Shown here: piece by piece, positions 656-15,856 of the stretch
Numbering within the stretch: the stretch's first letter is position 1
Layout: every line of letters starts with the position of its first letter
DNA from: Nitrosomonadales bacterium
Lineage (GTDB): Bacteria; Pseudomonadota; Gammaproteobacteria; Burkholderiales; Gallionellaceae
Assembly: GCA_016218415.1 (NCBI GenBank)
Contig: JACRED010000001.1
Coordinates: 1-64,000 of the forward strand
Reading direction: 5' to 3'
Length of the DNA stretch: 64,000 nt
Notes under the pieces: generated by a model
Databases searched by the model: none
Seen by the model: only the letters and a program-made list of their open reading frames with translations
Told to the model about the DNA's origin: nothing
Made by a program: the position numbers and the translations under genes

Positions 656-1080
656 GTGGTTAAGTCCGCTGTCAAAAAGCGAGCAAGAGATTACTGGGCC
701 CGGGAATTATTGGTAAAATTTGCGACGCGTGAGTTTTGTGTCGGTTGGACAATTCGTTGTTCACGCCTGTTCCTGCCGTGAGTTTCTAATGCGATAAAAA
801 ATCAGACAGTTTCGCTGTGTTTGGCGCGAGCTTGGGCGCAGCATGTTTTTGGAAATCGTGTAGAGCAGCGCAAGTGAACTTCGTTTGCACTTACATATCG
901 AACGCAGCCTTGGGCCGGTATGCAGGCACTGCCTGCAGGCTTGTCTATGTGGATTATTTGTTCGGGAGGGGCAGATTGGTTTTTGCTGCCCGGAATAATT
1001 AAGGGATCATTTGTTGTCTGTGTGGCGGAAAAGTACCGCTGCACACAGACAGTAAGCTTGTAATTTTATTGAAAGATGTC
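656..1080 (+). promoter_or_regulatory. Long structured 5' leader (gap 446-1080)
   Basis: No convincing gene is present in this 600-bp gap; short frames lack ribosome sites and family features. If transcription starts at the sigma-54 element, the mRNA has a leader of about 425 nt. It contains at least three hairpins: 921-937 (7-bp stem, 3-nt loop), 969-991 (6-bp stem GGGCAG/CTGCCC) and 1015-1051 (a 10-bp stem TGTCTGTGTG/CACACAGACA, a 2-nt bulge and 4 more pairs). The last ends about 30 nt before the start codon and is followed by a T-rich but interrupted stretch. The layout suggests post-transcriptional control, but no known riboswitch family was recognised. Confidence 0.45.
1015..1051 (+). 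promoter_or_regulatory. Strong hairpin just upstream of the FecR-cytochrome start
   Basis: The arms 1015-1028 and 1036-1051 pair over 14 bp with one 2-nt bulge around a 7-nt loop. It is too far from the start codon to cover the ribosome site directly. It could be an attenuator or an mRNA stabiliser. There is no continuous T-run, so it is not called a terminator. Confidence 0.5.
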
Positions 1081-2916
1081 ATGTTTTTGATGCGCGGGAC
1101 AATAAGAACGGCAATAGTTCTCGCTTGGATGATTCCTGTCTCTGTGTGGGCAGCGGGTGGCTACGTGTACGAAACCAAGGGTGATGTGTCAATTGCCACG
1201 GGGAAAGAGGCATCGCATCCCGCTGTAAAAAACAGCAAGGTCATGACCAACACGGTTGTCAGCACTGGTGAGCAGAGTCATGCCATTCTGAAGTTTGAAG
1301 ATGGGCAGATTGTGGCTATGCAGGCCAACACCGCTTTTAGTGTTCGCGAATATCGGTTTGAGCCAAAAAAAATCGAGAACAGTAATGTTGTTTTCTCCAC
1401 GCTCAAAGGCGGGCTGCTTTTTATTACCGGGCTTATCGGTCAGCGCAGCAAGAAATCATTTCGACTCACCACCCCGAACGCAACTATTGGCGTCCGTGGA
1501 ACGGAATTCATGGTTGTGATGATCGATGGCGCCCTCTATGGGAAAGTAATTTCGGGAAGCGTCAGTATGAATAATAAAGCCGGTGCGGCTATATTCAAGG
1601 CTGGCCAGTTCATTCTCGCCTCCTCGCCGGGCACCAAGCCTGTGGCCATCCCTGCGGAAGCCTTGCCGTCGGGAGTGTTCGGTCAGCTTGAGGCGATTCA
1701 ACTCCCTCCAGCCGACCCCGCGCCGTTGCCAGTATCGACAGCCGATGAAGCGATTTCTATCCCGTTGGTCGATACGGCATCTATCGTCACGGGCAGTGCC
1801 TTGCTGAGCATGGCTGCTGCATTCGCAGGGGGTGCTTCTGTCGTGGCCATGCCTCCCGGAGTATCCGCAGCGGGTCTGCTTGCTGTCGCTGCAAGTGGCG
1901 ATGTGCTCCCTTCTCCGGTATCGGCCGGCATCGTTACTGCGCAGTCCGAAGCAATCGCGCAAACCGGTGCGGTCGCAGCAGCCGGTAGTCCGGCAGCCAA
2001 TCCCGCCCTTGTCGTCGCCAAAGCCCCAGAAGCATGGTATGACGATATCGTGGCGCCATCCAGAAATACACCCGCCGCCGCTAGCACTCCAGCGCAGGCT
2101 GGTGTTGCAGCCGGCGACGCACGCCTTTTCGGCAAGCATAATTTCACCCCGGGCAGGGTGGGAACCGGCGAAATCTGCGTGTTTTGCCATGCACCGCAGG
2201 GATCAGAGACTAATGTTGCCGTTCCATTATGGAATCGTTCCATTTCCCCGCTGAGTGAATACAAGGCATATTCAAGCGTTGGGAGCGCCACCGCTGCCGC
2301 AACAGGCTCCATATCCATGGCTTGTCTTTCCTGTCATGATGGCACGCAGGCTCCCAATGTCGTCATAAACTCGCCGGCCAGTTATGCAGACCCAGGCATC
2401 TACCCCAAAGGCTACGAACCGACCCAAGTCAGCAGCAGCAACTATTTGAAGGATCACCATCCGGTCAGCATGTTGTACGGCGGCGGTGGGCAGAGTGATA
2501 AGCAGCCGGATGCTCCGGTGGATGCACTGGCCACGTTCAACAGCGCAAGCTATGACGTTCTTGCAGTCAGAAAACTCACTGCTCCCTCCGATGCCACTGC
2601 CAGAAGCGTTCCATTTCAGGATTCTGTATACAAAGAGGGTGAGGCAGGGCAGTTTACCAAACAGGACTTCAATCTGACTGAACACAGCGGCAGCGGCAGC
2701 GGAACGGTTTGGTGGCTGGAAAGCAAGGGCACGGGCAAGGGGCGCCAGAAATCCGACTTTTACCTGTACACGCGAACCGACACGGTCGATGGACTTACCC
2801 TGAATCGCCCCTATGTGGAATGTTCGAGCTGTCACGATCCGCACAGTTCAAATCCGACTTTTTTGCGCATCAACTCCAGTCGCAGTGCGGTGTGCCTGAC
2901 CTGCCACGCAAAGTAA
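1081..2916 (+). CDS. FecR-domain / tetraheme doubled-CXXCH cytochrome c fusion
   Basis: Exported 611-residue protein. Residues 1-24 form a signal peptide (hydrophobic core, ending VSVWA). Residues about 28-145 are a FecR domain (TKGDVSIATG, a FEDGQIV turn, and TTPNATIGVRGTEF at the end). An Ala/Pro-rich linker follows, with a strikingly hydrophobic stretch near residues 215-280 that might touch a membrane. The C-terminal 260 residues are a doubled-CXXCH cytochrome domain (Paired_CXXCH type) with KHNF, CVFCH, CLSCH, CSSCH and CLTCH: four haems c. That part is clearly homologous to the next gene and to the start of the 927-residue cytochrome. FecR domains act in periplasmic signalling or surface attachment; fusion to haem c suggests a redox-responsive or anchored electron carrier (inference). 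Start: ATG 1081 follows GAAAG; TTG 1069 and ATG 1090 are alternatives. Confidence 0.85.
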   Translation: MFLMRGTIRTAIVLAWMIPVSVWAAGGYVYETKGDVSIATGKEASHPAVKNSKVMTNTVVSTGEQSHAILKFEDGQIVAMQANTAFSVREYRFEPKKIENSNVVFSTLKGGLLFITGLIGQRSKKSFRLTTPNATIGVRGTEFMVVMIDGALYGKVISGSVSMNNKAGAAIFKAGQFILASSPGTKPVAIPAEALPSGVFGQLEAIQLPPADPAPLPVSTADEAISIPLVDTASIVTGSALLSMAAAFAGGASVVAMPPGVSAAGLLAVAASGDVLPSPVSAGIVTAQSEAIAQTGAVAAAGSPAANPALVVAKAPEAWYDDIVAPSRNTPAAASTPAQAGVAAGDARLFGKHNFTPGRVGTGEICVFCHAPQGSETNVAVPLWNRSISPLSEYKAYSSVGSATAAATGSISMACLSCHDGTQAPNVVINSPASYADPGIYPKGYEPTQVSSSNYLKDHHPVSMLYGGGGQSDKQPDAPVDALATFNSASYDVLAVRKLTAPSDATARSVPFQDSVYKEGEAGQFTKQDFNLTEHSGSGSGTVWWLESKGTGKGRQKSDFYLYTRTDTVDGLTLNRPYVECSSCHDPHSSNPTFLRINSSRSAVCLTCHAK

Positions 2917-3265: not shown

Positions 3266-4078
3266 ATGAAAACTTCAATGACTAAAGTATCAGCTGCTCT
3301 GGCGCTCATGGCGTTCAGCAGTGTTGCAATGGCGAGCATCTCCACCACACGTCACAACCTGGGCGCTGGCGGCACAGCCGGTAACCACGTTGTCGCGGGC
3401 GGTGGTGCGACAACTGAAATCTGCGTATTCTGCCATACACCTCACGGTGGCGATACAAACGTGATCGTTCCTTTGTGGAACCGTGTAACGACTACAGCTT
3501 CTTTCCAGACCTACGCCACTTTGGGCACCGGCACACTGGACGCTACTGAAGCTGCAATCGGTTCCATCTCTATTGCTTGCTTGTCCTGCCACGACGGTAC
3601 ACAAGCGATGGACGTGGTACTGAATGCTCCTGGCTTCGGCGGCGCAACTACCAACCTCACTATCACTGGTACTAGCACATGGGTTGACGCAACTCAAATG
3701 AGCTTGGCTCCATTGAACGGCGAGTTCGTTTACATCAGCACCGATCTGCGTAACGACCATCCGATCAGCATCCAGTACGGTGGCGGTAACTTGACCACCA
3801 ATGCTCCAACTGGCGTGACCAAAGATCCAGACTTCAATGCGCCGGCAACCGGCACATGGAACAGCAAGACTGTTTGGTGGCTCGACACTGGCGTTACTGG
3901 TATCGGCACAAAGCAGAAGTCTGACCTGCCACTGTATACACGTCTCATGGGCGGTGCTGACCAGCCGTTCGTTGAGTGCGGTAGCTGCCATGACCCACAT
4001 AGCAACAACACAACTTTCTTGCGCCCAGCAGTTGGCAATGCAAACAGCACCGTTTGCTTGACCTGCCACAACAAGTAA
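3266..4078 (+). CDS. Tetraheme doubled-CXXCH cytochrome c
   Basis: A 270-residue exported cytochrome. The signal peptide ends at AMA (about residue 23). The mature protein begins with the RHNL motif seen at the start of doubled-CXXCH domains. Haem sites are CVFCH (53-57), CLSCH (105-109), CGSCH (238-242) and CLTCH (264-268). Pattern and intervening blocks (PLWNR, CLSCHDGTQA, NDHPISIQYGGG, ECGSCHDPHS) match the C-terminal half of the preceding FecR fusion, so the two genes are paralogues. ATG 3266 is preceded by AAGAGG. The gene is monocistronic: its own sigma-54 promoter lies upstream and a strong intrinsic terminator lies 24 nt after the stop. Codon choice leans to CGT, GGT, GCT and AAC more than in its neighbours, as in strongly expressed genes. 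Likely an abundant periplasmic or surface electron carrier. Confidence 0.9.
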   Translation: MKTSMTKVSAALALMAFSSVAMASISTTRHNLGAGGTAGNHVVAGGGATTEICVFCHTPHGGDTNVIVPLWNRVTTTASFQTYATLGTGTLDATEAAIGSISIACLSCHDGTQAMDVVLNAPGFGGATTNLTITGTSTWVDATQMSLAPLNGEFVYISTDLRNDHPISIQYGGGNLTTNAPTGVTKDPDFNAPATGTWNSKTVWWLDTGVTGIGTKQKSDLPLYTRLMGGADQPFVECGSCHDPHSNNTTFLRPAVGNANSTVCLTCHNK

Positions 4079-4401: not shown

Positions 4402-5466
4402 GTGAAATCCAAACAAACTCGAAGCTACATCAGCCTGGCAATGCTCGCCGTTGGTATGCTGCTGGGGGCTGATGCGCTGGCCGCCGATGCCGCACCGAAT
4501 GTATCCAGCCCGGTTGCCGCGAACCAGCCGCCCGTTTTCGCTACCGTGGGGAAAATCACCATCACCCAGCGTGACTACGATGCCGCGTATGCATCGGCAG
4601 CGCGCAACAAGTTTTATCATGGCAAGCCCAACGATCAAGAATTGGCAGTATTCCAGCGCGAGATCGGCGATAAGCTCATCACCGAGGCGTTGCTGGTGAA
4701 CGAAGCCAAGAGCCGCAAACTGAAACCGGATGCCGAGTTCGTCAAACAAAAGCTACAGGTGCAGGATGAACGAAACGCAGGCAACCCGCGTTGGCAGCAG
4801 ATTCGTGCGCAAGTGTTGCCCAAAATGACCCAGCAATTGGAAGAAACCAGTCTGCGCAGCAAGCTGGAAGAGATTGTGCGCAAGGTGCCCGCGCCGAACC
4901 AGAAGCAGCTCCGCAAGTTTTATGATGAGAATCCGAAATTGTTCACCGAGCCGGGGCAAATGCGAGTCTCCGTCATTCTGCTCAGTGTAGACCCCTCGTC
5001 GCCTCCGGAAACCTGGACTAGGGCGCGCGATTTTGGCAAGGATCTCATCAAGCAAATACGCGAGGGGGCGAGCTTTGCCGAATTGGCGGCAAAATATTCC
5101 GGCGATGCCTCGTCTGCGCAACAAGGGGGGGACATGGGATATTTACATGCGGGCATGTTGAATGGCGTGCCAGAGGAGGCGGTGAAAAAGCTAAAGCCGG
5201 GCGAAATCTCCGATGTCGTGAACTTAATGGAAGGGGTGGCAATATTCCAGTTGACCGAGCTTAAAGAGCCGGTCCTGAGCAACTTTGACAGGGTCAAGGA
5301 GCGCGCTGGCGCGCTGTGGGCAGAAGCGGAAAGCAACCGTATCTGGGAGTCATTCAAAGAGCAGTTGAGGAAAAAGACGCCGGTCAAGGTGGATGAATCT
5401 CGTTATGTTCCGCTCGCCGTTCCGGCTGTAAACAATAATGGCGCTCCACCAGGGGCAGCCAAGTAA
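4402..5466 (+). CDS. Parvulin-type peptidyl-prolyl cis-trans isomerase (PpiC/SurA-like)
   Basis: A 354-residue exported folding factor. The GTG start at 4402 follows a GAAAGG ribosome site. The signal peptide (ISLAMLAVGMLLGADALA) is followed by a low-complexity stretch, an N-terminal helical chaperone-like region (about residues 40-165) and a parvulin domain (about 175-285) with the typical motifs GASFAELAAKYSGDASSAQQGGDMGYLHAGML and LKPGEISDVV. The C-terminus is a Pro/Ala-rich tail. It is close to the EpsD/PpiC group of secreted PPIases. It lies between the tetraheme cytochrome gene and the outer-membrane barrel gene on the same strand, so its clients are probably the exported cytochromes or the barrel (inference). 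PpiC genes are commonly seen beside multihaem cytochrome clusters in iron-cycling bacteria. Confidence 0.88.
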   Translation: MKSKQTRSYISLAMLAVGMLLGADALAADAAPNVSSPVAANQPPVFATVGKITITQRDYDAAYASAARNKFYHGKPNDQELAVFQREIGDKLITEALLVNEAKSRKLKPDAEFVKQKLQVQDERNAGNPRWQQIRAQVLPKMTQQLEETSLRSKLEEIVRKVPAPNQKQLRKFYDENPKLFTEPGQMRVSVILLSVDPSSPPETWTRARDFGKDLIKQIREGASFAELAAKYSGDASSAQQGGDMGYLHAGMLNGVPEEAVKKLKPGEISDVVNLMEGVAIFQLTELKEPVLSNFDRVKERAGALWAEAESNRIWESFKEQLRKKTPVKVDESRYVPLAVPAVNNNGAPPGAAK

Positions 5467-5833
5467 TCTCGTTCCGGATAACCGGGCACAATTGTTGCTG
5501 CTTAAGCCATTATGTTGGTATCCAAAGGCGGCAGCACCGAGGTTGTCCGGGCGTGAATGCAAATAAATCGCGTGCTTGGGAACTAAAAGAGCGGTGCGTG
5601 AACCAATTCTGCTCATATGCTGCTGCTCGTGTGTTTTAAAATTGCGCCGGATGTCGTTGGAATGGGTGCGATAAATGGGGCTGAGGAAGCTCACGTGGGA
5701 TGCCAGCTGTATAGCAGATTAATCAGGCAAGAAAGAAAGTATGGCCGGTATTTGCCTGCCTGTGCGGCTCTAGCATTCGCGGATGAAATTGCTTTTGGAT
5801 TAAAAGCGCCCATACCCTAAACACGATAACGAA
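5467..5833 (+). other. Intergenic region before the barrel gene
   Basis: A 367-bp gap. A 67-codon frame (5617-5820) exists but has no ribosome site or recognisable features and is not called. I found no -24/-12 element here. This gap probably holds the promoter for the operon that begins with the barrel gene. Confidence 0.4.
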
Positions 5834-7750
5834 ATGCCAAGAGCAAAACAGGTCAAAAGCAAAGTGATCGGTATCAGCCGGACATCCGGTATTCTGGTGC
5901 TGGCATGGCTGCTTTTAGGCTGGTCCCGGCAAGTTTTATCTGCCGAAGAGTCGGCAGTGCCGGAGCCGACTCTGCAACTCGCCCCGATTCAAATTGGTTT
6001 TAGTAAAGGTGGAAACATCGGTTATTTGCAGCGATACGATGATATGGGCAGCACCAAATCACTGCAACGTATTTACGGATTGACGGTGGGTGTAGGCGTT
6101 ACCGCCGAGTCTTTCATCTGGCAGCCTTGGCTGGTCAAGGTGGGGACGCATTTAAATGCCTCTGTCAATTCCGATATAAGCGACTCGGCGAGCAACAGCT
6201 GGAGCATGTCCAAGTTGGCCCGCAGCGGCGAGTCTGTCAACCGCACTATTACCGGCGGTGCTGACATGAGAGTCCTGCCACTCAGCCGCTTTCCTTTCGA
6301 GGCGAGTTTCACAAGGAACGATAATCGTCGCGAAATCGGGCTGGTCAAATCCCGGTATGCCACGCTGACGGACACCCTCAGATTATCTCAATCCTACCGG
6401 AATCCCAGCGGGAGATCGCGTTATCTGGTGACGTACAATCTTGGCCGTGCAGAAGATATCGATTCAAATGTGGAAAAAAATAGCCTCGTGAATCTCGATA
6501 TTTCGTTGCAGCCTTTTACCCGGCAGACACTGCAAATTGATGGAGTCAAGGAGCGCCGTACCAGTACGCTGACAGACAGCACCTACTTGAACAACAGTTT
6601 CATATCCCGCCATACCTACCGGCCGGATGCGGCATTGTCCGTGGCAACCATGGCCAGCTACTCGGATACGGGTTACCGATTCTCGCAAGGACAGGGGGAA
6701 ACGGGACTGGAAACACTGCAATTCAGCAGTGCAGGAACCTGGCGGCCCCCCGATAGCCGCCTGACCATGACCGGCGGTCTGCGATTGTTTGATGCGAGCA
6801 GCCGTTACAACGGAACCTCTACCTCGCAAGACAGTTACACGGGAGCAAATCTCGGTGCAAACTATGCGTTGAATAACTGGCTGCGTTTGTACGGTAGCGC
6901 CGATGTTTCCGATAGCCAGGGCAAGCAGACCGTATCCTCGCTCGCTATCAGCAACCTGAACCTGTCCATTGCCGCCCAACACAGGCCGAAGGCGATCAAG
7001 GTTGGTAGCTTTAACTACAACAGATATATAGCCGCGAATTTATCCAATAGCACCACTGCCAGTTCAGCTAAAAATTCAGCCGGCACCACCAGCGCTGCGG
7101 GCTCTACTCTGGCATTTTCGTTGCGACTGCAGCATGGGTTGGATAGCAATGCCGAACTCGGTACCGGTCGTCTGACCTCGGCCGTCAGCCAAGCCCTGAC
7201 AACCAGCACTTCGCGCAGTTCGACCGCTTCCCGTGGTACTTCGCCGATTGTCAATTTGATCCACAACGGCTCATTGTCTTGGCTAAAAGGCAGAACCGGC
7301 CTTCGTCTGAGCGGCAGCGATACCCGTGAAATGACGCAATCCAAAGGATATTTTCAGAGCATAAACCTGCAGGGTAGTCAAAGTGAGAGTTTCCGCGGTA
7401 ATGGAATTTTAAACGGAGATTTGACCATTAATATGTCGCGTCAGGGATACGATGCCGCACCGATACCCGCGACCGAGTCCTTGACTTCCACCGCCACCCT
7501 GAATTACATCAACCCGCGCGTATTTAAAGTTCGCAACCTGGCTTTCAGGTCTTCGCTGCGGGTTATCAGTGCAGACCTGCTGCAATCAAACAGCATGAAT
7601 CAAAATACACAGAACCAAGGGCAGTACTCCTGGGACAATACGCTGACTTATACGATTGGAAAGCTGCGCACAGAAGTCAGGGGGGTTATTGAGGAGGTGC
7701 ACTCGTCTAAACAGGCCTCGCTGATATTTTTCGTAAGCAGGTGGTTCTAA
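5834..7750 (+). CDS. Outer-membrane beta-barrel, putative cytochrome-conduit porin
   Basis: A 638-residue protein with a long signal peptide (n-region to about 18, hydrophobic LVLAWLLLGW, cleavage near LSA at about 36). The rest shows alternating polar/hydrophobic strands broken by Ser/Thr/Asn/Gly-rich turns, and it ends in ...FFVSRWF, with the C-terminal aromatic residue expected of barrels handled by the BAM complex. There is no cysteine anywhere, unlike MtrB-type barrels, which carry an N-terminal CXXC. Size and context (cytochrome genes before and after) fit a sheath barrel of a porin-cytochrome complex that carries electrons across the outer membrane. That function is inferred; sequence alone shows only the barrel. 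It is probably the first gene of a unit running to 15856. The ribosome site is weak. Confidence 0.8.
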   Translation: MPRAKQVKSKVIGISRTSGILVLAWLLLGWSRQVLSAEESAVPEPTLQLAPIQIGFSKGGNIGYLQRYDDMGSTKSLQRIYGLTVGVGVTAESFIWQPWLVKVGTHLNASVNSDISDSASNSWSMSKLARSGESVNRTITGGADMRVLPLSRFPFEASFTRNDNRREIGLVKSRYATLTDTLRLSQSYRNPSGRSRYLVTYNLGRAEDIDSNVEKNSLVNLDISLQPFTRQTLQIDGVKERRTSTLTDSTYLNNSFISRHTYRPDAALSVATMASYSDTGYRFSQGQGETGLETLQFSSAGTWRPPDSRLTMTGGLRLFDASSRYNGTSTSQDSYTGANLGANYALNNWLRLYGSADVSDSQGKQTVSSLAISNLNLSIAAQHRPKAIKVGSFNYNRYIAANLSNSTTASSAKNSAGTTSAAGSTLAFSLRLQHGLDSNAELGTGRLTSAVSQALTTSTSRSSTASRGTSPIVNLIHNGSLSWLKGRTGLRLSGSDTREMTQSKGYFQSINLQGSQSESFRGNGILNGDLTINMSRQGYDAAPIPATESLTSTATLNYINPRVFKVRNLAFRSSLRVISADLLQSNSMNQNTQNQGQYSWDNTLTYTIGKLRTEVRGVIEEVHSSKQASLIFFVSRWF

Positions 7751-7837
7751 ACAGGGCCGATCCACCAGCTAAACTTTGGCAATGATTACAGGCTTCGATT
7801 AAAAGGCTCACATGCGCAAACAGGAGCCAGACTGGGA

Positions 7838-8287
7838 ATGGGAATGCGGCGTTTACTAAAATTGGCATTCGATAAGCATGCTGCGATGAACTGGCGGCTG
7901 CTATTAATCCGCGCCCTCGCACTTTGGGCAGCTTTATTGGCTTTTGCCGGACCAGCCTCGGCTGAGTATGGCGACGTGGTCATCAACAACTACGCGGAAA
8001 CGCAGGGTATGCGCCCCGTGGTTTTTCCGCACTGGTTCCATCGTATCCGTTTTGCCTGCAAGGTCTGCCACGCCGACCTTGGTTTTAAGTTCAAGGCGGG
8101 CGGAAACGACATCACCATGTCCAAGATCATAGAAGGCCAGTTTTGTGGTGCCTGTCATAACGGAAACCTTGCATGGTCGGTAAAGAACTGCAATCTGTGC
8201 CATTCCGGCAAGCCGGGTACGCCAACCCAGGTGCATGAAAGTACATCTCAGGAATTGGCCGTTCCTGCCGAGCGGGGGAAGAAGTAA
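7838..8287 (+). CDS. Triheme c7-type cytochrome, short form (pair 1)
   Basis: A 149-residue periplasmic cytochrome. A signal peptide (LLLIRALALWAALLAFAGPASA) precedes EYGDVVINNYAE and the block MRPVVFPHWFHRIRF, whose histidines probably serve as distal haem ligands. The haem motifs are CKVCH, CGACH and CNLCH, so three haems c, in the spacing of the triheme c7-type ('nanowire') domain. It is a close paralogue of the gene at 10591. ATG 7838 follows AGGAG by 11 nt; ATG 7886 would give a tighter signal peptide. The stop codon is one base before the ATG of the long triheme gene, so the two are coupled. Likely a soluble periplasmic shuttle to the outer-membrane conduit. Confidence 0.88.
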   Translation: MGMRRLLKLAFDKHAAMNWRLLLIRALALWAALLAFAGPASAEYGDVVINNYAETQGMRPVVFPHWFHRIRFACKVCHADLGFKFKAGGNDITMSKIIEGQFCGACHNGNLAWSVKNCNLCHSGKPGTPTQVHESTSQELAVPAERGKK

Positions 8288-8288
8288 C

Positions 8289-9011
8289 ATGAGCCGGTTT
8301 TTCTTTCCACATCTAGTGCTCGTGTCTGTGCTGGTTGCACCGGCAAGCAATGCGGCAACCGAACCGCAGCCGGCCAAGAAGGGTCCCTCCACAGAAGTGC
8401 CCGTTGTCATACAACCCGGAACCGCTACCAAACCCGCGGAGGGGTTTCAGGCCCCGTCGCTGACCTACCAGACCCAGCAATCGGGAACGCCGCTGAATGC
8501 ATCCAATTCATTTAACCGGCTGTTGAAAACTGCGCGGCGTCACCAGGCGCCTACCGATGATGGTATTCACGATCCCGATAATGACGGCACCAAAATACTG
8601 CAACCCCCGCTGGAGGCTTATGCCAATCTGCCGAGAACCGCGAGCGACCTCGGTAATGGCGTGGACTGGGTGAAGGCGATGGACGAGCATATCATCAGCC
8701 CGCGCTGGGATATTGACGATCCCGAGATGCAGCCGTTAGTCATGGATATGAACATCATACGTTTCCCCAGGGGATCCATTCCGAACGAACTGTTTCCGCA
8801 CAGGCAGCATACATTGTGGCTGGACTGCTCCAATTGCCATCCCGCTATTTTCATTCCGCAAAAGGGAGCAAACCAGATCAGCATGGCTGCGAATTTGCTC
8901 GGGCAAAAGTGCGGCACCTGTCATGGCAAGGTTTCCTTTCCATTGTCCGAGTGCAAGCGTTGTCACTCCCAGCCCAAAGTACTTCCGGGACGGGAAGGGG
9001 TGAAGCCATGA
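8289..9011 (+). CDS. Triheme c7-type cytochrome, long form (pair 1)
   Basis: A 240-residue exported cytochrome. The signal peptide runs to about SNA, followed by a Pro/Ala/Thr-rich segment and an N-terminal domain with no haem (HDPDNDGTKILQPPLEAYANLP...GVDWVKAMDEHIISPRWDI). The C-terminal 80 residues hold FPHRQHTLWLDCSNCH, CGTCH and CKRCH: three haems c, with FPHRQH supplying likely axial histidines. The haem-free domain plus triheme domain is repeated in the gene at 10022. ATG 8289 follows GGGGAAGAAG. The stop overlaps the next start (ATGA). The N-terminal domain may dock the cytochrome on a partner such as the barrel or the lipoproteins (inference). Confidence 0.88.
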   Translation: MSRFFFPHLVLVSVLVAPASNAATEPQPAKKGPSTEVPVVIQPGTATKPAEGFQAPSLTYQTQQSGTPLNASNSFNRLLKTARRHQAPTDDGIHDPDNDGTKILQPPLEAYANLPRTASDLGNGVDWVKAMDEHIISPRWDIDDPEMQPLVMDMNIIRFPRGSIPNELFPHRQHTLWLDCSNCHPAIFIPQKGANQISMAANLLGQKCGTCHGKVSFPLSECKRCHSQPKVLPGREGVKP

Positions 9012-9922
9012 CAAAAATCGCCATTGCGCTGTGGATCCCGTTTCTGGCGCTGAACTGGGCACAATGTTTGCACGCCGAACCGCAAACAGCAGCGCCTCCC
9101 AAAGTGGTTGGTCAAACCGGCAACCCTTCTTCACGCACCATGATTCAGCAAAAACTCCAACTGGTGAAGATGATGTTGGCGACTTCAACTGCGATGGAGA
9201 GAGCTTCCCGCAAGGATGATGCAGCGGTCAAGCAGCAAGTGGCGGCAGCGCTTGCTGTCTATGCCAGCGCCAATGATGCCCTGAATGCGGATAACCTGGC
9301 GCGGGCGGAGGAGTTGGCGGACGAGGCATTGCGCATGATTGAAGAGCTGTCGCGCAAGGCACCCGACCAGCAACAGGCCGAGGCGGGCCAGCGCGCACGC
9401 TATGAAGAACTGCTGAAGGAATTGCGCAATGCCGAGGCAACCTATCAGGATCTGCGTCAACGTACGGCTCCGGGAGGCAAAGCGTCGGGGCCAGGTATTG
9501 AGCGCGCACGCAAACAGGGCGACCAGGCGCAAGCGCTTGCCAAAGACGGACGTTACCGCGAGGCGGCGGAGTTGCTGAAAGACGCCCATGCTGAAATCAT
9601 TTCCGCACTGAATAAATTGTTGGGATCGGCAACGCTGACATATGACCTGAAGTTCAAGTCGGATGCCGAGGAATATGAATACGAGTTGGCGCGCTACCAT
9701 AGCTACGAGGAACTGGCGCCGATTGCCTATGTCGAACTGAAGCCCGATCAGGGTACGATCAAATTGAGCGAACGTTATGTGCAGGAAAGCCGCACTATGC
9801 GCGACACCGCAAAGCAGCAGGCCGCGCAGGGAGACCATAGGGCGGCTATCAATACGCTTCTGGAAGCGATCAAGCGTATGCAGACTGCGCTACGTGTGGT
9901 GGGGTTGGTGTTGCAGGAGTGA
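9008..9922 (+). CDS. Helical periplasmic protein of the cytochrome operon, unknown function
   Basis: A 304-residue protein with a signal peptide (MTKIAIALWIPFLALNWAQCLHA), then an almost wholly alpha-helical, Ala/Glu/Gln/Lys-rich sequence with TPR- or coiled-coil-like periodicity (for example LADEALRMIEELSRKAPDQQ and RAAINTLLEAIKRMQTALRVVG). It has no haem motif, no transmembrane segment after the signal and no cysteine beyond the signal peptide. No family was recognised. It is translationally coupled to the upstream long triheme cytochrome (ATGA overlap at 9008-9011) and sits between two triheme pairs, so a scaffold or assembly role for the cytochromes is plausible. That is inference from position only. 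Confidence 0.75.
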   Translation: MTKIAIALWIPFLALNWAQCLHAEPQTAAPPKVVGQTGNPSSRTMIQQKLQLVKMMLATSTAMERASRKDDAAVKQQVAAALAVYASANDALNADNLARAEELADEALRMIEELSRKAPDQQQAEAGQRARYEELLKELRNAEATYQDLRQRTAPGGKASGPGIERARKQGDQAQALAKDGRYREAAELLKDAHAEIISALNKLLGSATLTYDLKFKSDAEEYEYELARYHSYEELAPIAYVELKPDQGTIKLSERYVQESRTMRDTAKQQAAQGDHRAAINTLLEAIKRMQTALRVVGLVLQE

Positions 9923-10021
9923 TCTGAAATACCTGTGATAAATTTTAAGGTTTCGCCTGAATCCGCAACCGGGATTTCAAAGCGACAGGGTATTTTGCTG
10001 ACTCCACCGGAGTAAATATCA

Positions 10022-10594
10022 ATGGTACAAAATTTAATGAAAGGGTTGCTGGCCTTGTGCATCGGGCTGGGAATTGCACAGGGAGCGTTCCCCGCCGAAC
10101 CCGCTTCCACGGAGAAACCGGCTTGGCTGCCTTTGGCTCAAGACGACCTGCATGACCCGGAGGGACCCGGAATAAAGTTTCTGCAGGAACCCGCCGAGTC
10201 GTTATCCACGTTACCATCGGATGTGGTTGGTAACCGTGTAAACTGGGTACGCGCTCTGGATAAAGGCTTTATCGATCCGCGGATCAACCTTTATTCCAAC
10301 AAAAAGCAGAAAGTGCTCGATCTGGACGTGATCAGACGGAAGACAGGGGAAATGAACATGGTGCGTTTCCCGCATCGACAGCACACCGAATGGCTGGACT
10401 GTACCAATTGCCACGAATGGCTGTTTAAATCCAAGGCGGGCGCTACCAAATTCAGCATGTTCGACGTGCTAAAGGGCGATTTTTGCGGGCGTTGCCACGG
10501 GGCTGTTGCCTTTCCCCTGACGCAGTGCAACCGTTGCCATAGCGTTCCGCGCAGGGTATCCGCAACACCCGCAGCAGATGCAGGCCGGAAATGA
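10022..10594 (+). CDS. Triheme c7-type cytochrome, long form (pair 2)
   Basis: A 190-residue exported cytochrome, paralogue of the gene at 8289. The signal peptide ends near AFPA. The haem-free N-terminal block (DLHDPEGPGIKFLQEPAESL... NRVNWVRALDKGFIDPR) lines up with the other long form but lacks its Pro/Thr-rich insert. The C-terminal domain has FPHRQHTEWLDCTNCH, CGRCH and CNRCH: three haems. ATG 10022 follows CCGGAG. The gene overlaps the next one by ATGA. Order in this pair is long then short, the reverse of the pair at 7838-9011, so the duplication was not a simple tandem copy. Confidence 0.88.
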   Translation: MVQNLMKGLLALCIGLGIAQGAFPAEPASTEKPAWLPLAQDDLHDPEGPGIKFLQEPAESLSTLPSDVVGNRVNWVRALDKGFIDPRINLYSNKKQKVLDLDVIRRKTGEMNMVRFPHRQHTEWLDCTNCHEWLFKSKAGATKFSMFDVLKGDFCGRCHGAVAFPLTQCNRCHSVPRRVSATPAADAGRK

Positions 10595-10995
10595 CATACT
10601 TATACCCGCAAATCATATTCAGTAAACTTTTCGGGGCTTGCCTGCTGGCCTCGCTGATGTTGCTTGCCCCGTTAACGGCGCAAGCCGAATATGGCGATGT
10701 GGTGCTTAATAATCGGGCGGAGCAATCCGGTATGCGTCCGGTCATTTTCCCGCACTGGTTTCATCGCATCCGCTTCAAATGTAAGGTATGCCATACGGAA
10801 GTTGGCTTCGAGATGCGTGCCGGAGCAAACGATATCCTGATGGCGGATATCATCGACGGCAAGCTGTGCGGCAAGTGTCATAACAACAAAATTGCCTGGG
10901 GACCGCAAAATTGCCACCTATGCCATTCCGGATTGCCGGGGCTGAAAACCGGAATACGCGGCGGAGACAGCACAGGGGGGCCGGGCAAATGGTAA
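10591..10995 (+). CDS. Triheme c7-type cytochrome, short form (pair 2)
   Basis: A 134-residue periplasmic cytochrome and paralogue of the gene at 7838. The signal peptide (LLASLMLLAPLTAQA) is followed by EYGDVVLNNRAEQSGMRPVIFPHWFHRIRFKCKVCH, nearly matching its partner, then CGKCH and CHLCH: three haems c. The start overlaps the previous stop (ATGA). Two closely similar copies in one operon suggest gene dosage, or slightly different potentials along an electron path; the sequence does not decide between these. Confidence 0.88.
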   Translation: MTYLYPQIIFSKLFGACLLASLMLLAPLTAQAEYGDVVLNNRAEQSGMRPVIFPHWFHRIRFKCKVCHTEVGFEMRAGANDILMADIIDGKLCGKCHNNKIAWGPQNCHLCHSGLPGLKTGIRGGDSTGGPGKW

Positions 10996-11053
10996 GCATG
11001 CAATCTTTATCCGGAAGCAGCGCCCCACTTGGCACAAACCGGGAGTGGTTCAC

Positions 11054-12001
11054 ATGATGTGCCCGTTCATCCGCTGGTCAATCTTACTTGCTACTTTGGC
11101 GCTGGCCGGGTGCACAATGGGCTGGCTTGACGACTCGGGGAAACGCGAATTTTTGCAGCCATGGGTCGAGTTGACAGGCGCACAGATGAGCATGTCTGCG
11201 GGTGCGCACAGAACTGACTATATAGTGTTTCAGCGACCCGCCGCGCTAAGTGTGCGCGGCAATGCTCTGTATCTTGCCGATGCAGGGTTGCGTCGCATAT
11301 TCCGTTATGACCGCAACCAACAAATGTTGACGCCGTTTGCCACGAATCTGCCTGTTGAAACGGGGATGAGTATTTATGCGGCTACGGATGAATCGGTTTA
11401 TATCACCCTGCCTTCAACCAGCAAGGTTCTGCATTTCAGCTGGGGTGGGATCCCACTCCCATCATTGGCCGCACCCGGCATCGTGGCACGCCCTATTTCT
11501 GTTGCAGTGGACGAGCGTACCGGAAACGTGCTGGTGGCAGATGACCTGTACAATCACATCGTTGTATTCAGTAATCTGGGCGGGATGCTTGCCATCATTA
11601 AACCCCCGCAAGTGCAATCCATTTCCGCCATCGCAACCGGCCCCGACGGAATCTATGTAATAGATCGTCTCGCAAAACGGGTTGTCGTTCTGGGGCCGGA
11701 AGGCGGATTCCGTTATGCTTTTGCGGCAGATTCAGCAAGCGAACCCGGCAGCATTGCCGTGAATCGAGATAATCTGGTATTTCTGGGCGACAATTTTGAC
11801 AACACGGTCAGAGTTTTTAAAGCGCAGGTCTCGAAGGAGACGTTGCTGGTAGGGAAGATCGGTGGCGTGGGCGCTTCCGACAACTTTAACGGTATTGGCG
11901 GCCTTGCGGTAGAAGACGACATGCTGTACGTGGCGGACAGCTTGAATGCGCGCATCCAGGCGTTTTTGATCAATCCCGACGCAATGGGATCGGGGAGATG
12001 A
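11054..12001 (+). CDS. NHL-repeat beta-propeller lipoprotein 1
   Basis: A 315-residue lipoprotein. The lipobox LALAGC lies near residue 21, so lipidation is expected. The body has repeated NHL/YWTD-like blades (for example ALSVRGNALYLADAGLRRIFRYDR, NVLVADDLYNHIVVFSNLG, GLAVEDDMLYVADSLNARIQAF), about six in all, giving a beta-propeller. There is no haem site. ATG 11054 follows GGGAG by 8 nt. It lies one base before the next NHL gene. NHL proteins are recurrent partners of multihaem cytochromes in iron-cycling bacteria and may hold the cytochrome on the barrel or at the membrane surface (family context plus inference). Confidence 0.82.
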   Translation: MMCPFIRWSILLATLALAGCTMGWLDDSGKREFLQPWVELTGAQMSMSAGAHRTDYIVFQRPAALSVRGNALYLADAGLRRIFRYDRNQQMLTPFATNLPVETGMSIYAATDESVYITLPSTSKVLHFSWGGIPLPSLAAPGIVARPISVAVDERTGNVLVADDLYNHIVVFSNLGGMLAIIKPPQVQSISAIATGPDGIYVIDRLAKRVVVLGPEGGFRYAFAADSASEPGSIAVNRDNLVFLGDNFDNTVRVFKAQVSKETLLVGKIGGVGASDNFNGIGGLAVEDDMLYVADSLNARIQAFLINPDAMGSGR

Positions 12002-12002
12002 A

Positions 12003-13076
12003 TTGAACCTGCGGCGCATATCGACACTTATACTGCTGGCGCTAAGCATGAGCCTCGCCGGTTGCGCTGAAACGCATCTGGTGATGAATCTCAGCGCGTC
12101 TGGCCAGGATGCCGAACCCAAAATCTGGCCTGCACCGCCGGATGAGCCACGCTACCGCTATGCGGGCGAATTGACCGGCGAAGACAATTTCCGGCCCGAT
12201 AACTGGGCAAATCGCAGTACTGCGTCCAAACTGTTCGAATGGCTGGTCGGACTGACCGGTTTTCGCGATGAGCCGGTTGTGCTGCAGCGCCCGCAAAGCG
12301 GCATGGTAGATGCTGAGGGGCGCATCTACGTTACGGACATCAGCCGCGGCGCGGTATATGTATTCGACAAAATTGCCGGGGAGCTGAAAGTCTGGGAGAT
12401 GTCAGGCGACAGGGAGCGATTCGTGGCCCCGATAGGCATCGCCTCTGGAATGCCCGGTGAAGTATTGGTGGCGGATGCGGAATTGCACAGTGTGTTTCGC
12501 CTGAATGCCGATGGGAAATCCGTGGGCGAATTTGGACGCGATGCGCTGAAGCGCCCCACCGGTCTGGCGCGAGACGCGCAGCGCGGGCGGGTTTATGTCG
12601 CCGATACTTACGCCCACGACATCAAGGTGTTTGGTGACGACGGCAAACTTCTGAAAGCCATCGGTCAGCGCGGAGAAGAAGACGGACAATTCAATTTTCC
12701 AACGTATCTGGCTTTCGCCGGGGACAAGCTTTACGTCACCGACACGCTGAATTCCCGCGTCCAGATATTCGATGCGGACGGCAACATGGTCGGAAAATTC
12801 GGCCAACGCGGGTTGTTCGTGGGCAACATGGTGCGCCCCAAGGGGGTGGCCGTAGACAGTACCGGAAATATTTACGTGGTAGAATCTTTGCACGACAATT
12901 TGCTGATCTTCGACAGCCAGGGCCGTACCTTGCTGGCAATCGGCGGCAACGGAAAAAACGCTGGCGAATTCTATCTCCCCGCAGGGGTCTGGATCGACAG
13001 CCAGGATCAGGTTTATATCGCCGACATGTTCAACGGCAGAATCACGGTTTTGCAGTTTTTAGGAAGCTCGCAATGA
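12003..13076 (+). CDS. NHL-repeat beta-propeller lipoprotein 2
   Basis: A 357-residue lipoprotein. The only start that keeps the signal peptide is TTG 12003, preceded by GGGGAG. The lipobox is SLAGC at about residue 21. A short N-terminal domain (PAPPDEPRYRYAGELTGEDNF) common in NHL lipoproteins precedes a six-bladed propeller whose blades carry ADTY-, TDTLNSRVQIFD- and VESLHDNLLIFD-type motifs, ending in ADMFNGRITVLQ. No haem site. Its stop overlaps the ATG of the large cytochrome (ATGA at 13073), which implies coupled translation and probably a physical partnership with that cytochrome. Confidence 0.85.
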   Translation: MNLRRISTLILLALSMSLAGCAETHLVMNLSASGQDAEPKIWPAPPDEPRYRYAGELTGEDNFRPDNWANRSTASKLFEWLVGLTGFRDEPVVLQRPQSGMVDAEGRIYVTDISRGAVYVFDKIAGELKVWEMSGDRERFVAPIGIASGMPGEVLVADAELHSVFRLNADGKSVGEFGRDALKRPTGLARDAQRGRVYVADTYAHDIKVFGDDGKLLKAIGQRGEEDGQFNFPTYLAFAGDKLYVTDTLNSRVQIFDADGNMVGKFGQRGLFVGNMVRPKGVAVDSTGNIYVVESLHDNLLIFDSQGRTLLAIGGNGKNAGEFYLPAGVWIDSQDQVYIADMFNGRITVLQFLGSSQ

Positions 13077-15856
13077 ACAGACCACACTGCTCATCACAAA
13101 CGGGACGCACCCTGGTTCTAGGTATCGCGCTGTTGCTGGGTAGCGGAAGCATCGCGCTGGCCGCCATCGTATCGGACGTGAGCGCCACCAAACATAACCT
13201 GTCCGCTGCCGCAGACGGTTCGGCCACGCGTACCGGGACGGTGCCCGCACGCACTGTCAAGGCAACGGGCGAAACGCAGATATGCGTGTTCTGCCACACA
13301 CCGCATGCCGCGACCAGTGGTATTGCCGCACCGCTGTGGAACCGGACGCTGTCGACCGCGACCTATACCATTTACGATTCCGCTTCGATGGATGCATACA
13401 CGATTGCGAATCCTAAGCCGGTTAACCCGGGTGCAGGCTCAAAAGTGTGCCTGTCCTGCCATGACGGCACACTGGCAATCGGTATGGTCGGCGTGCTTAA
13501 TTTTGCAAAGGATGTCGCCATCAATATGAGCGGCACCGACTTTCTGGGCGGGATGCCGGGAGGCTCCGGGATCCTTACAGGTTATACGCGCAATCTGGGC
13601 ATAGACCTGGGTAACGACCATCCCATCGCCTTTACCTACGACAATATCCTCGGTGGCGCCGGCGGCACCGACGGTGAATTGCGCTCACCACCTGTCGTTG
13701 TTGGCGCCACCACCGTGGTCGGCAACCGCAGCCCCGGCGTGAAACCGACCTATCCTCTGGAAAGCAACCAGATGCAATGTCCGACCTGTCACGATCCGCA
13801 TCTTAGCGATACAGTCACCACCAATCCACCGCTCAAATTTATGCGCGGCAACCGATTGCAACAGGCCAGCCCGCTGGGCGGAAACTACGTTGTGGCCGAC
13901 GATATCATGTGCCTGGCCTGCCACGACAAGGCGGGAACGAGCTGGTCGAATTCTGCGCACGCCAACTCTCTGGTCGCCGATCAGGCTTATCTGGATCCGG
14001 AAGCTGCAGTGCGTGAATTTTCCAACGGGACCCAAGTATGGCAGGCTTCATGTCTGGGCTGTCATGACACGCATACCGTGCAAGGCTCAAGGCATTTGCT
14101 GCGCGAAGGCACGGACAGCGTGCTCAGCCCCAAGAGCGGCGGCAATCCGGCGATCGAACAGACCTGTTTCCAGTGCCACAGCCCGTTGGGCACAAGCATT
14201 CTTACGCCGCTCACTGCAGTGCCGGACATCAAAACCGATTTTACTTTGAACTTCCGCATGCCGATAAACAACGCAGACCAGGGGGTGGCAACCGAGGCGC
14301 ACAGCATCGGTGGCAACTTCGACGACAGCGTGGTAACCGGTGATTCGAATGCCCACTGTAACGTCGCCACTGACAGGTGCGGCAAAGACTTCGTGGAATC
14401 ACAAACGCGTCTGGGCAGAATCACGGCCGGTGTCGATACCGCCAAGCGCCATGCCGAATGCACCGATTGTCACAACCCGCACCGTGTCACCAAGACTCGT
14501 CTATTCAACGACGATGCGACTCCTCCGCTCACCCCCGCGGCGGCAGGCACCCACAAACATGCTGTTTCCGGCGCCGGGGATGTTGCGCACAGCAACATCG
14601 CTTCGGGATCCTTGCGCGGCATGACCGGTGTGGAGCCGACCTATACCTCCAACGAGTTTGGCGCCAACCCCTCGGGATTTACCGTGAAGCGCGGCGATGC
14701 CGGAATCGGGGTATCCACCGCTGTTTCCAGCACCTGGGTGACACGTGAGTACCAGGTGTGCTTTAAATGCCACTCGAATTATGCCTATGACACTGCAGTG
14801 GGTCCGCCGACTTCCGTGGTTACCCCGCCTTTGTCGCTGGGAACCTATGGGGGCAGTACCTCAAACGGTACCAACGGAATGAACAAGTACACCGATGTGG
14901 CCATGGAATCCAAGGCGCCAGCCAGCCACAAAGGCGCACCGGCATCCACTTCCGACTCGGGCGCGCATACGAATTTCTCGGGCAACAACCACCTGTCATG
15001 GCACCCCGTGACGGATAACACCGGGCGTACCGTTGCTGTGCGCGGCAACGCCAGTCCGAATCTGTGGCGCGCCCCGTGGAACGGTTCTAATGTCGATGGC
15101 GGCACTACCCACGTTGCTGCCGTCGGGAATCAGACCATGTATTGCAGCGATTGCCACGGATCCGGCAACGCGCTCACCGATGGTTCCGATCCAGTCAACG
15201 GCGAAAACGGCAAATCATGGGGGCCGCACGGCAGCAATAATGCTTTCCTGCTGAAGGGGCCGTGGAATACTGCAACCCAGGTTGGTGTTGCGACCGACAC
15301 GCTGTGTTTCCGTTGCCATGATGCGGGTCAGTATGGCGATGGGGCAGTACCACCAGCAGGAGGCACATTGGCCAGCGGTTTTGGCGGTGCAGGCAACGAT
15401 GCCTGGGGCGTGCCTATCACCAACCTGCATCAACGGCACGCCTTTTACACCACGTTGGCAACAGGAGGCACTCCTACAGTTCCGCCTTCCATGTGGAACA
15501 ACCTGCCCGTTTCCTGGAACACTTCATACCGCTGCACCATGTGCCATACCGGCACGGCGCACGGCTGGAAGAACAAAGGCTTTCTGGTCAACCTCGACGA
15601 TCTCGGTCTGGAGCTCAATGCGACCGGCGGCGCGATTGGCGGCGAAGTCACGCTGCCGACCGCCACGCCTCCCTCGACAACCCTGACCGCCGGTCAGGCT
15701 GTGCCCAAGGGCACGAAAGCGGCCGCTGCTGCCACGCCACCACCGGCCGCCGGTTACACCAACGGCCCTTATTATCAGGGGGCTTATCTGCGGGTGACCA
15801 ATTTTGCGGCTCCCGGCACCTGGGTGAAAACCGACTGCACGGGCGGTTGCCACTAG
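13073..15856 (+). CDS. Large multihaem cytochrome c, 11 CXXCH plus a terminal CX3CH
   Basis: A 927-residue exported cytochrome. The signal peptide ends near ALA (30). The N-terminal quarter (KHNL at 40-43, CVFCH 71-75, PLWNR, CLSCH 126-130, NDHPIAFTYD) is a doubled-CXXCH unit like the two tetraheme proteins at the start of the locus. Nine more sites follow: CPTCH, CLACH, CLGCH, CFQCH, CTDCH, CFKCH, CSDCH, CFRCH and CTMCH. The last six residues are CTGGCH, a CX3CH spacing, right before the stop. Long Gly/Ser/Thr/Asn-rich stretches between haems resemble surface-exposed outer-membrane cytochromes. It has no lipobox, so if it is at the surface it must be held by partners. Most likely the cell-surface terminal of the conduit; the substrate (Fe(II)) is inferred. 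Confidence 0.9.
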   Translation: MNRPHCSSQTGRTLVLGIALLLGSGSIALAAIVSDVSATKHNLSAAADGSATRTGTVPARTVKATGETQICVFCHTPHAATSGIAAPLWNRTLSTATYTIYDSASMDAYTIANPKPVNPGAGSKVCLSCHDGTLAIGMVGVLNFAKDVAINMSGTDFLGGMPGGSGILTGYTRNLGIDLGNDHPIAFTYDNILGGAGGTDGELRSPPVVVGATTVVGNRSPGVKPTYPLESNQMQCPTCHDPHLSDTVTTNPPLKFMRGNRLQQASPLGGNYVVADDIMCLACHDKAGTSWSNSAHANSLVADQAYLDPEAAVREFSNGTQVWQASCLGCHDTHTVQGSRHLLREGTDSVLSPKSGGNPAIEQTCFQCHSPLGTSILTPLTAVPDIKTDFTLNFRMPINNADQGVATEAHSIGGNFDDSVVTGDSNAHCNVATDRCGKDFVESQTRLGRITAGVDTAKRHAECTDCHNPHRVTKTRLFNDDATPPLTPAAAGTHKHAVSGAGDVAHSNIASGSLRGMTGVEPTYTSNEFGANPSGFTVKRGDAGIGVSTAVSSTWVTREYQVCFKCHSNYAYDTAVGPPTSVVTPPLSLGTYGGSTSNGTNGMNKYTDVAMESKAPASHKGAPASTSDSGAHTNFSGNNHLSWHPVTDNTGRTVAVRGNASPNLWRAPWNGSNVDGGTTHVAAVGNQTMYCSDCHGSGNALTDGSDPVNGENGKSWGPHGSNNAFLLKGPWNTATQVGVATDTLCFRCHDAGQYGDGAVPPAGGTLASGFGGAGNDAWGVPITNLHQRHAFYTTLATGGTPTVPPSMWNNLPVSWNTSYRCTMCHTGTAHGWKNKGFLVNLDDLGLELNATGGAIGGEVTLPTATPPSTTLTAGQAVPKGTKAAAAATPPPAAGYTNGPYYQGAYLRVTNFAAPGTWVKTDCTGGCH

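Follow-up and report, generated by a model that had tools for sequence, protein, structure and literature searches.

The window analyzed here, a stretch of 64,000 nucleotides from a bacterium of the Gallionellaceae (contig JACRED010000001.1), carries on its plus strand a gene cluster that, judged by its composition and order, is a Uet (undecaheme electron transfer) cluster in a form with four triheme cytochromes, and we consider it probable that this conduit is used for electron uptake. The name Uet reportedly goes back to Eddie 2022, a paper known to us through those that cite it. Such clusters have already been reported from Tenderiales and Gallionellaceae (PMC10734462, PMC5371394). Hoover 2023 predicted Uet in six Gallionella, with a UetJ of 11 or 12 heme motifs, a tetraheme UetA, the trihemes UetDEG, a peptidyl-prolyl isomerase UetB, the NHL proteins UetHI and, by BLAST in four of the six, the barrel UetC (PMC10734462). 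In Ca. Tenderia electrophaga, Eddie 2017 described three trihemes (Tel_16515, 16520, and 16530), a tetratricopeptide repeat (TPR) protein (16525), and an undecaheme cytochrome (16545) (PMC5371394); these tags, which run in steps of five, would fit UetD, E, F, G, and J and leave room for exactly two genes, H and I, between the last two.

The window matches this published plan at every gene: it encodes an undecaheme UetJ, a tetraheme UetA, UetB, a UetC supported by a structural model, trihemes D, E, and G around F (published as TPR-type), and the NHL proteins H and I, in the same order as far as the available text of these papers gives one. It differs in two respects, namely a fourth triheme between G and H, which we label G2 and which is absent from the uetA–J set as far as the published descriptions could be read, and a FecR–tetraheme fusion encoded upstream. 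An earlier reading of this DNA, made from the sequence only, had pointed to a likeness with porin–cytochrome clusters of Gallionellaceae and to a make-up that might be a variant; the likeness goes as far as the named Uet cluster itself, which that reading had missed, and the variant make-up holds for the additional triheme (present in 40 of the 59 loci compared below), whereas the helical protein, the twin NHL proteins, and the flanking trihemes belong to the published plan.

Composition of the Locus

The first gene of the set, uetA (3266..4078), encodes a tetraheme cytochrome with four CXXCH motifs; its open reading frame (ORF) runs from 3209, and the ATG at 3266 is preceded by AGAGGA. It is followed by uetB (4402..5466), encoding a PPIC/parvulin-type peptidyl-prolyl isomerase (PPIC domain, E value 2.7e-18) from a GTG at 4402 within an ORF that opens at ATG 4330, and by uetC (5834..7750), whose 638-residue product is predicted to be an outer-membrane beta-barrel, with 28 strands in an AlphaFold2 model. 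Next come the short triheme c7-type cytochrome UetD (7838..8287), the long triheme c7-type cytochrome UetE (8289..9011; listed ORF opening at 8235), the all-helical, repeat-like UetF (9008..9922), the long triheme c7-type cytochrome UetG, a paralogue of E (10022..10594), and the short G2, a paralogue of D (10591..10995). The NHL-repeat proteins UetH (11045..12001) and UetI (12003..13076, TTG start), both with a lipoprotein-type N-terminus, precede UetJ (13073..15856), a protein of 927 residues with 11 CXXCH motifs, a terminal CX3CH, and an OmcE-like N-terminal module. All these genes lie on the plus strand, so that the single-strand arrangement of barrel, isomerase, four trihemes, helical protein, two NHL proteins, and large cytochrome described in the sequence-only reading is borne out, as are the ATGA overlaps that it mentioned, three of which were found (E/F at 9008, G/G2 at 10591, and I/J at 13073). 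Its limits of 4402 to 15856 enclose genuine members of the unit but stop short of uetA and of the FecR–tetraheme fusion (1069..2916). Because the intergenic gaps are wide between A and B (251 or 323 bases, depending on the start codon) and between B and C (367 bases), a single transcript is not to be inferred.

Conservation and Distribution

The first set of loci was drawn mostly from the best 80 of at least 565 matches, ranked by similarity to the UetJ of the window, in named genomes, and 79 loci were kept; 95 places were annotated, among which 59 hold both barrel and UetJ (48 named and UetJ-seeded, 10 from the family and barrel-seeded, and the window). One locus, L045, lies on the same contig as L033 and is left out of the 59 loci, of the 97 UetJ sequences, and of the lipobox and distal-histidine counts below. 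In 58 of the 59 loci the genes are colinear, so the cluster is not a product of chance, and the co-conservation that the sequence-only reading would have expected is thereby seen; L036 has an extra, heme-less D/G2-like ORF before G. Where a first-set locus extends 1300 bases or more beyond its first B/C gene on the upstream side, UetA is present (28 of 28). In a second sample, the barrel profile was run against 369 genomes drawn evenly from the class, own genome included; it matched in 40, and 39 loci were read. There, the D-E-F-G-H-I order was found in 30 of 39 loci and UetA in 38, the contig of the remaining one (L133) ending just upstream of B. UetB was recognized in 54 of the 59 first-set loci and 36 of the 39 class loci.

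Within the family, the barrel is present in 16 of 158 genomes (again with the own genome counted), UetJ in 18, and the two together in 14; in the two family genomes with a barrel and no UetJ (L026 and L029), the contig breaks off ahead of UetJ or inside it. Among the matches listed, UetJ hosts include Rhodoferax, Ramlibacter, Polaromonas, Sphaerotilus, Dechloromonas, Magnetococcales, Chromatiales, and others, and no UetJ match was obtained in 72,556 plasmid records. Five Aromatoleum/Azoarcus loci (L101, L104, L105, L110, and L111) encode a UetJ-like 11-heme cytochrome with no UetC barrel within the stretch examined, and two of them, L104 and L105, have two UetJ-like copies each. A tandem pair of 11-heme UetJ copies was also observed in one Gallionellaceae cluster (L033:1530-7304).

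Four Triheme Cytochromes and Their Predicted Heme Ligands

All four trihemes of the window exceed the 40-bit cut-off of TIGR04257, and no further match to this model was found in the own genome (Gallionellaceae, 2.5 Mb, 86% complete), in which all genome-wide searches reported here were made. Their order (D, E, F, G, G2) reads short-long-F-long-short and thus forms a mirror. In a tree of 189 triheme domains, which has few columns and long branches, short and long forms separate with support of 100/100, E forms a single clade (100/98), and 39 of 40 G2 sequences fall in one clade (100/99) that lies among the D sequences when the tree is drawn with midpoint rooting. These paralogues are common to distant Proteobacteria and are therefore not a local invention.

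The full mirror was observed in 25 of the 59 first-set loci, and D-E-F-G without G2 in 14. The latter figure is an upper bound, because frames in the G–H gap went unannotated, with three CXXCH in L073 and L079 and two in L087. The first set favors the kin of the window, since it was selected by similarity to its UetJ, and the impression that four trihemes are the usual layout was reversed by the class sample, in which the full mirror occurs in 3 of 39 loci (L148, L155, and L159) versus 30 of 39 with three trihemes; G2 occurs without G in two others (L135 and L153), and four end early or have a heme-less G (L144, L145, L154, and L160). The four-triheme form is thus a minority form in the class sample. 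Among close relatives, the same-genus loci L023, L024, and L025 retain hemes in G and G2 only, and L031 has no triheme between barrel and UetI. As a side observation, UetE bears a fourth CXXCH in 21 of 53 copies.

An HxxH precedes the first CXXCH in 189 of 189 trihemes, and the methionine that, in the trihemes of the window, stands nine residues ahead of the second CXXCH is kept in 188 of 189 aligned sequences and, by position, in 114 of 114 class-sample trihemes. In the PDB, G2 matches 3ov0 (GSU1996, E value 1.1e-39), 3oue, 3ouq, and 1rwj; when positions are counted along the alignment, its methionine coincides with residues 209 and 287 of the 3ov0 chain. In GSU1996 (PDB 3OV0), Met209 and Met287 are axial ligands, and each domain has one His–Met heme (PMC10138318). 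On this basis, we predict one His/Met heme in each Uet triheme. The dodecaheme GSU1996 resembles the Uet proteins in its triheme domain and axial methionine position (Met209, Met287) and differs in joining four such domains in one chain, where the window encodes four separate proteins. The near-invariant position of this methionine, together with the OmcE kinship described below, may be new to specialists.

UetJ and the Number of Its Hemes

UetJ has 11 CXXCH motifs in 94 of the 97 sequences examined, including that of the window, and the other three look cut or frame-shifted. The window copy adds a terminal CX3CH, in agreement with the 11 to 12 hemes previously proposed for this cytochrome. 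However, a twelfth heme had to be rejected as a general feature of UetJ, for a terminal C-X3/4-CH was seen in only 7 of 97 (the window copy, those of five relatives in the same genus, and that of L088) and, in the class sample, in 1 of 30 (L131). Most of the other tails listed end in a cysteine pair of variable spacing with no histidine (the listing comprises 99 UetJ, with two L045 copies that bring it down to 97 when removed). Fifteen distal histidines are each shared by no fewer than 92 of 94 sequences, a count that leaves out UetJ with fewer than 11 motifs; they would suffice to ligate 11 or 12 hemes within the chain. The terminal CX3CH could possibly be a disulfide or a twelfth heme peculiar to this genus.

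Predicted Barrel, Helical Protein, and Lipoproteins

UetC belongs to no Pfam or NCBIfam family. Its AlphaFold2 model, built on a 40-sequence alignment, has a mean predicted local distance difference test (pLDDT) score of 85 and a predicted template modeling score of 0.67; 28 long strands were counted from its element list, and the first 130 residues are less sure. Of 785 Foldseek matches, the 50 that rank best are all barrels of the outer membrane; they include LptD, barrels of type 9 secretion, and, at rank 15, MtrB (6r2q_B; E value 3.4e-6, template modeling [TM] score 0.33). In our view, these matches support a barrel rather than kinship with MtrB, and the outer-membrane location assumed in the sequence-only reading is consistent with the 28-strand model, modeling being what it is based on.

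The UetF model is all-helical, with nine long helices (pLDDT 86.6), and its fold has no PDB match below an E value of 0.4; in 15 of the 59 loci, the gene is duplicated or triplicated in tandem. A crude rule for lipobox-like motifs found them in 52 of 62 UetI and 19 of 37 UetH; it gives some false matches, since F (13/68), C (7/60), and G (7/53) also score.

Kinship with the Nanowire Cytochrome OmcE

Comparison with PDB sequences points to a relation that the literature searched does not mention, as no text linking Uet with OmcE was found there, the original naming paper lying outside that coverage. At an E value of 0.001, the UetJ profile has two PDB matches, OmcE (7tfs; E value 5.4e-32, over the N-terminal quarter of UetJ) and 9yuq, a putative multiheme cytochrome of 16 chains; the N-terminal module alone still matches OmcE at 1.4e-19. 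UetA finds the same two structures over its length, aligning residues 7–270 to 6–232 of 7tfs (E value 3e-22) with CXXCH motifs and four distal histidines in register, and the FecR–tetraheme fusion matches both as well. These four histidines, one of which links adjacent subunits in OmcE, are kept in 46, 43, 48, and 48 of 48 sequences of UetA and the FecR fusion. By this evidence, UetA and the N-terminus of UetJ are homologous to OmcE, the nanowire cytochrome of Geobacter. In OmcE, solved as 7TFS, one heme is ligated by a histidine of the adjacent subunit, and the filament has a rise of about 34 Å and a pitch of about 208 Å (PMC12954529, PMC9473688). The likeness covers the full length of UetA and the N-terminal module of UetJ; the differences are that OmcE is a homopolymer, when UetA is known here from its sequence, and that UetJ has seven further CXXCH.

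This homology invites the tentative idea that Uet is the base of an OmcE-type nanowire, in which UetA would polymerize outside the cell, a barrel-seated UetJ, with its first four hemes in the OmcE-like module, would nucleate or cap the filament, and separate trihemes with one His/Met heme each would feed the barrel. We regard this as possible, with the balance of expectation clearly on the other side.

Probable Electron Uptake and Competing Explanations

From gene content, order, heme motifs and their conservation, the OmcE homology, and the barrel model, we infer a complex that might work as follows. UetC would sit in the outer membrane as a 28-stranded barrel; the trihemes D, E, G, and G2 would serve as electron carriers, both in the periplasm and at the barrel or within it, possibly aligned by UetF as a helical scaffold; UetH and UetI would brace the complex as lipoproteins; and UetB may help the folding of exported proteins. 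UetJ, with 11 or 12 hemes, and the OmcE-like UetA, with four, would be the outer contacts, at which Fe(II), minerals, or a cathode could deliver electrons, which would then cross at the barrel and exit via the trihemes to periplasmic carriers. Within the cluster, no candidate was seen for an inner-membrane partner that handles quinones, and the earlier statement that one unit holds all parts required for the passage across the outer membrane goes further than the sequence shows.

Inward flow, with Fe(II) or minerals as the source and the periplasm as the destination, seems the most likely direction for this autotroph because the host belongs to the Gallionellaceae, because its genome has two matches to the RuBisCO large subunit, no NapC/CymA, and no MtoA, and because the trihemes count among the genes that Ca. 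Tenderia expresses most strongly at the cathode (PMC5371394). The chief competitor is that the conduit runs outwards and delivers respiratory electrons to Mn or Fe oxides. Rhodoferax, Ramlibacter, and Rubrivivax are mainly heterotrophic genera. Uet loci were found in Rhodoferax (L038 and L041), Ramlibacter (L040 and L054), Rubrivivax (L079), and a Dechloromonas metagenome-assembled genome (L096), and undecaheme cytochromes are cited in the Mn-reducing Ca. Dechloromonas occultata (PMC13264449). Nevertheless, the family of the window genome, its RuBisCO matches, and its want of a NapC/CymA match argue otherwise, as does the cathodic life of the Uet host of PMC5371394, and direction is not itself encoded in sequence; we consider outward flow unlikely.

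Several observations weigh against uptake through a Uet conduit as we propose it. The assignment compares published descriptions of gene content and order rather than the reference protein sequences of Ca. Tenderia. The likeness of UetC to large barrels is generic only (TM scores of 0.20–0.37 in the matches listed), its profile has no sequence relative in the PDB at an E value of 0.1, and the TPR nature of UetF is weak, TPR_2 being detected in 3 of 33 members and not in the window copy. UetJ is not always coupled to the barrel: in four family genomes it is present with no barrel detected, and in three genomes of one family from the class sample (L156–L158) the locus holds UetA to UetI when UetJ lies elsewhere, these genomes having 12–13 scattered UetJ-profile matches each, many of which fall on the OmcE-like module at the N-terminus. 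As for the inner membrane, the 86%-complete genome has no NapC/CymA-type (PF03264) match that would supply a link there. As for direction, UetJ and the trihemes of Tenderia did not change significantly with cathode potential (PMC5371394), and the presence of the cluster in the Dechloromonas genome and the genera just named as heterotrophic, the undecaheme cytochrome cited for a Mn reducer (PMC13264449), and the incompleteness of the genome all reduce certainty.

A less probable possibility still is that UetC is mainly an export pore for surface cytochromes, with the isomerase, the NHL lipoproteins, and the helical protein as assembly factors, and that electrons cross elsewhere. An isomerase and two lipoproteins are parts that would be of use in assembly, the structural matches of UetC include LptD and barrels of type 9 secretion, and the outer cytochromes travel with the barrel, as the 28 of 28 loci with UetA illustrate. 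Export alone, however, would not account for the trihemes, two to four of which have a fixed place between uetC and the NHL genes in almost every locus.

It is highly improbable that the locus belongs to the MtrCAB/MtoAB or PCC3 families and differs from them in altered cytochromes, even though MtrB is among the Foldseek matches of the barrel and the compartment layout is similar, for the barrel profile recovers no PDB sequence, no MtrA/MtoA was found in the own genome (best TIGR03508 score 25.5 bits, versus a cut-off of 192.2), and no periplasmic cytochrome of 21–27 hemes, with which PCC3 is described (PMC10734462), lies in the cluster, the genome elsewhere not having been searched for one. 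The separation from MtrCAB and MtoAB made in the sequence-only reading is therefore upheld.

The barrel of MtrB has 26 strands. Uet has in common with MtrCAB/MtoAB a barrel with periplasmic and surface multiheme cytochromes, and with PCC3 a porin with periplasmic and extracellular multiheme cytochromes in Gallionellaceae; unlike MtrCAB/MtoAB, the window has no decaheme plug, small trihemes instead, and a barrel modeled with 28 strands. One ORF elsewhere in the genome (G000:C19:18160-18951; loci L117 and L118) gives weak matches to DmsE/MtrA models, far below their cut-off.

Neighboring Genes

Upstream of uetA, the fusion at 1069..2916 on the plus strand joins a FecR domain to a UetA/OmcE-like tetraheme domain with four CXXCH; among the family loci compared, such a fusion stands beside uetA only in the same-genus L024, L025, and L028. 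Downstream of uetJ lies a sulfatase-family gene in the opposite orientation. At some other Uet loci, cytochrome maturation genes (ResB, CcsA-type, and TPR) directly follow uetJ (L034:16870-19393 and L052:12664-16104), in L052 with a DsbA-like gene next to them; no ResB/CcsA-type assembly genes were seen beside uetJ in the window. In the same-genus L031 (L031:11291-14253), a histidine kinase and a sigma-54 response regulator are encoded downstream of uetJ and may regulate it.

Implications for Electron Uptake and Nanowire Anchoring

If used for uptake, the Uet cluster would offer electrons a route into the cell in a member of the Gallionellaceae whose genome yielded no MtoA. In a 2025 review, the secretion and outer-membrane anchoring of cytochrome nanowires are called speculative (PMC12307469). 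A widespread cluster whose neighboring genes encode an OmcE homologue along with a barrel and a relay of trihemes makes both points testable outside Geobacter, and, were the filament idea true, a trans-membrane conduit would be physically linked to a cytochrome filament in iron oxidizers and in many other Proteobacteria.

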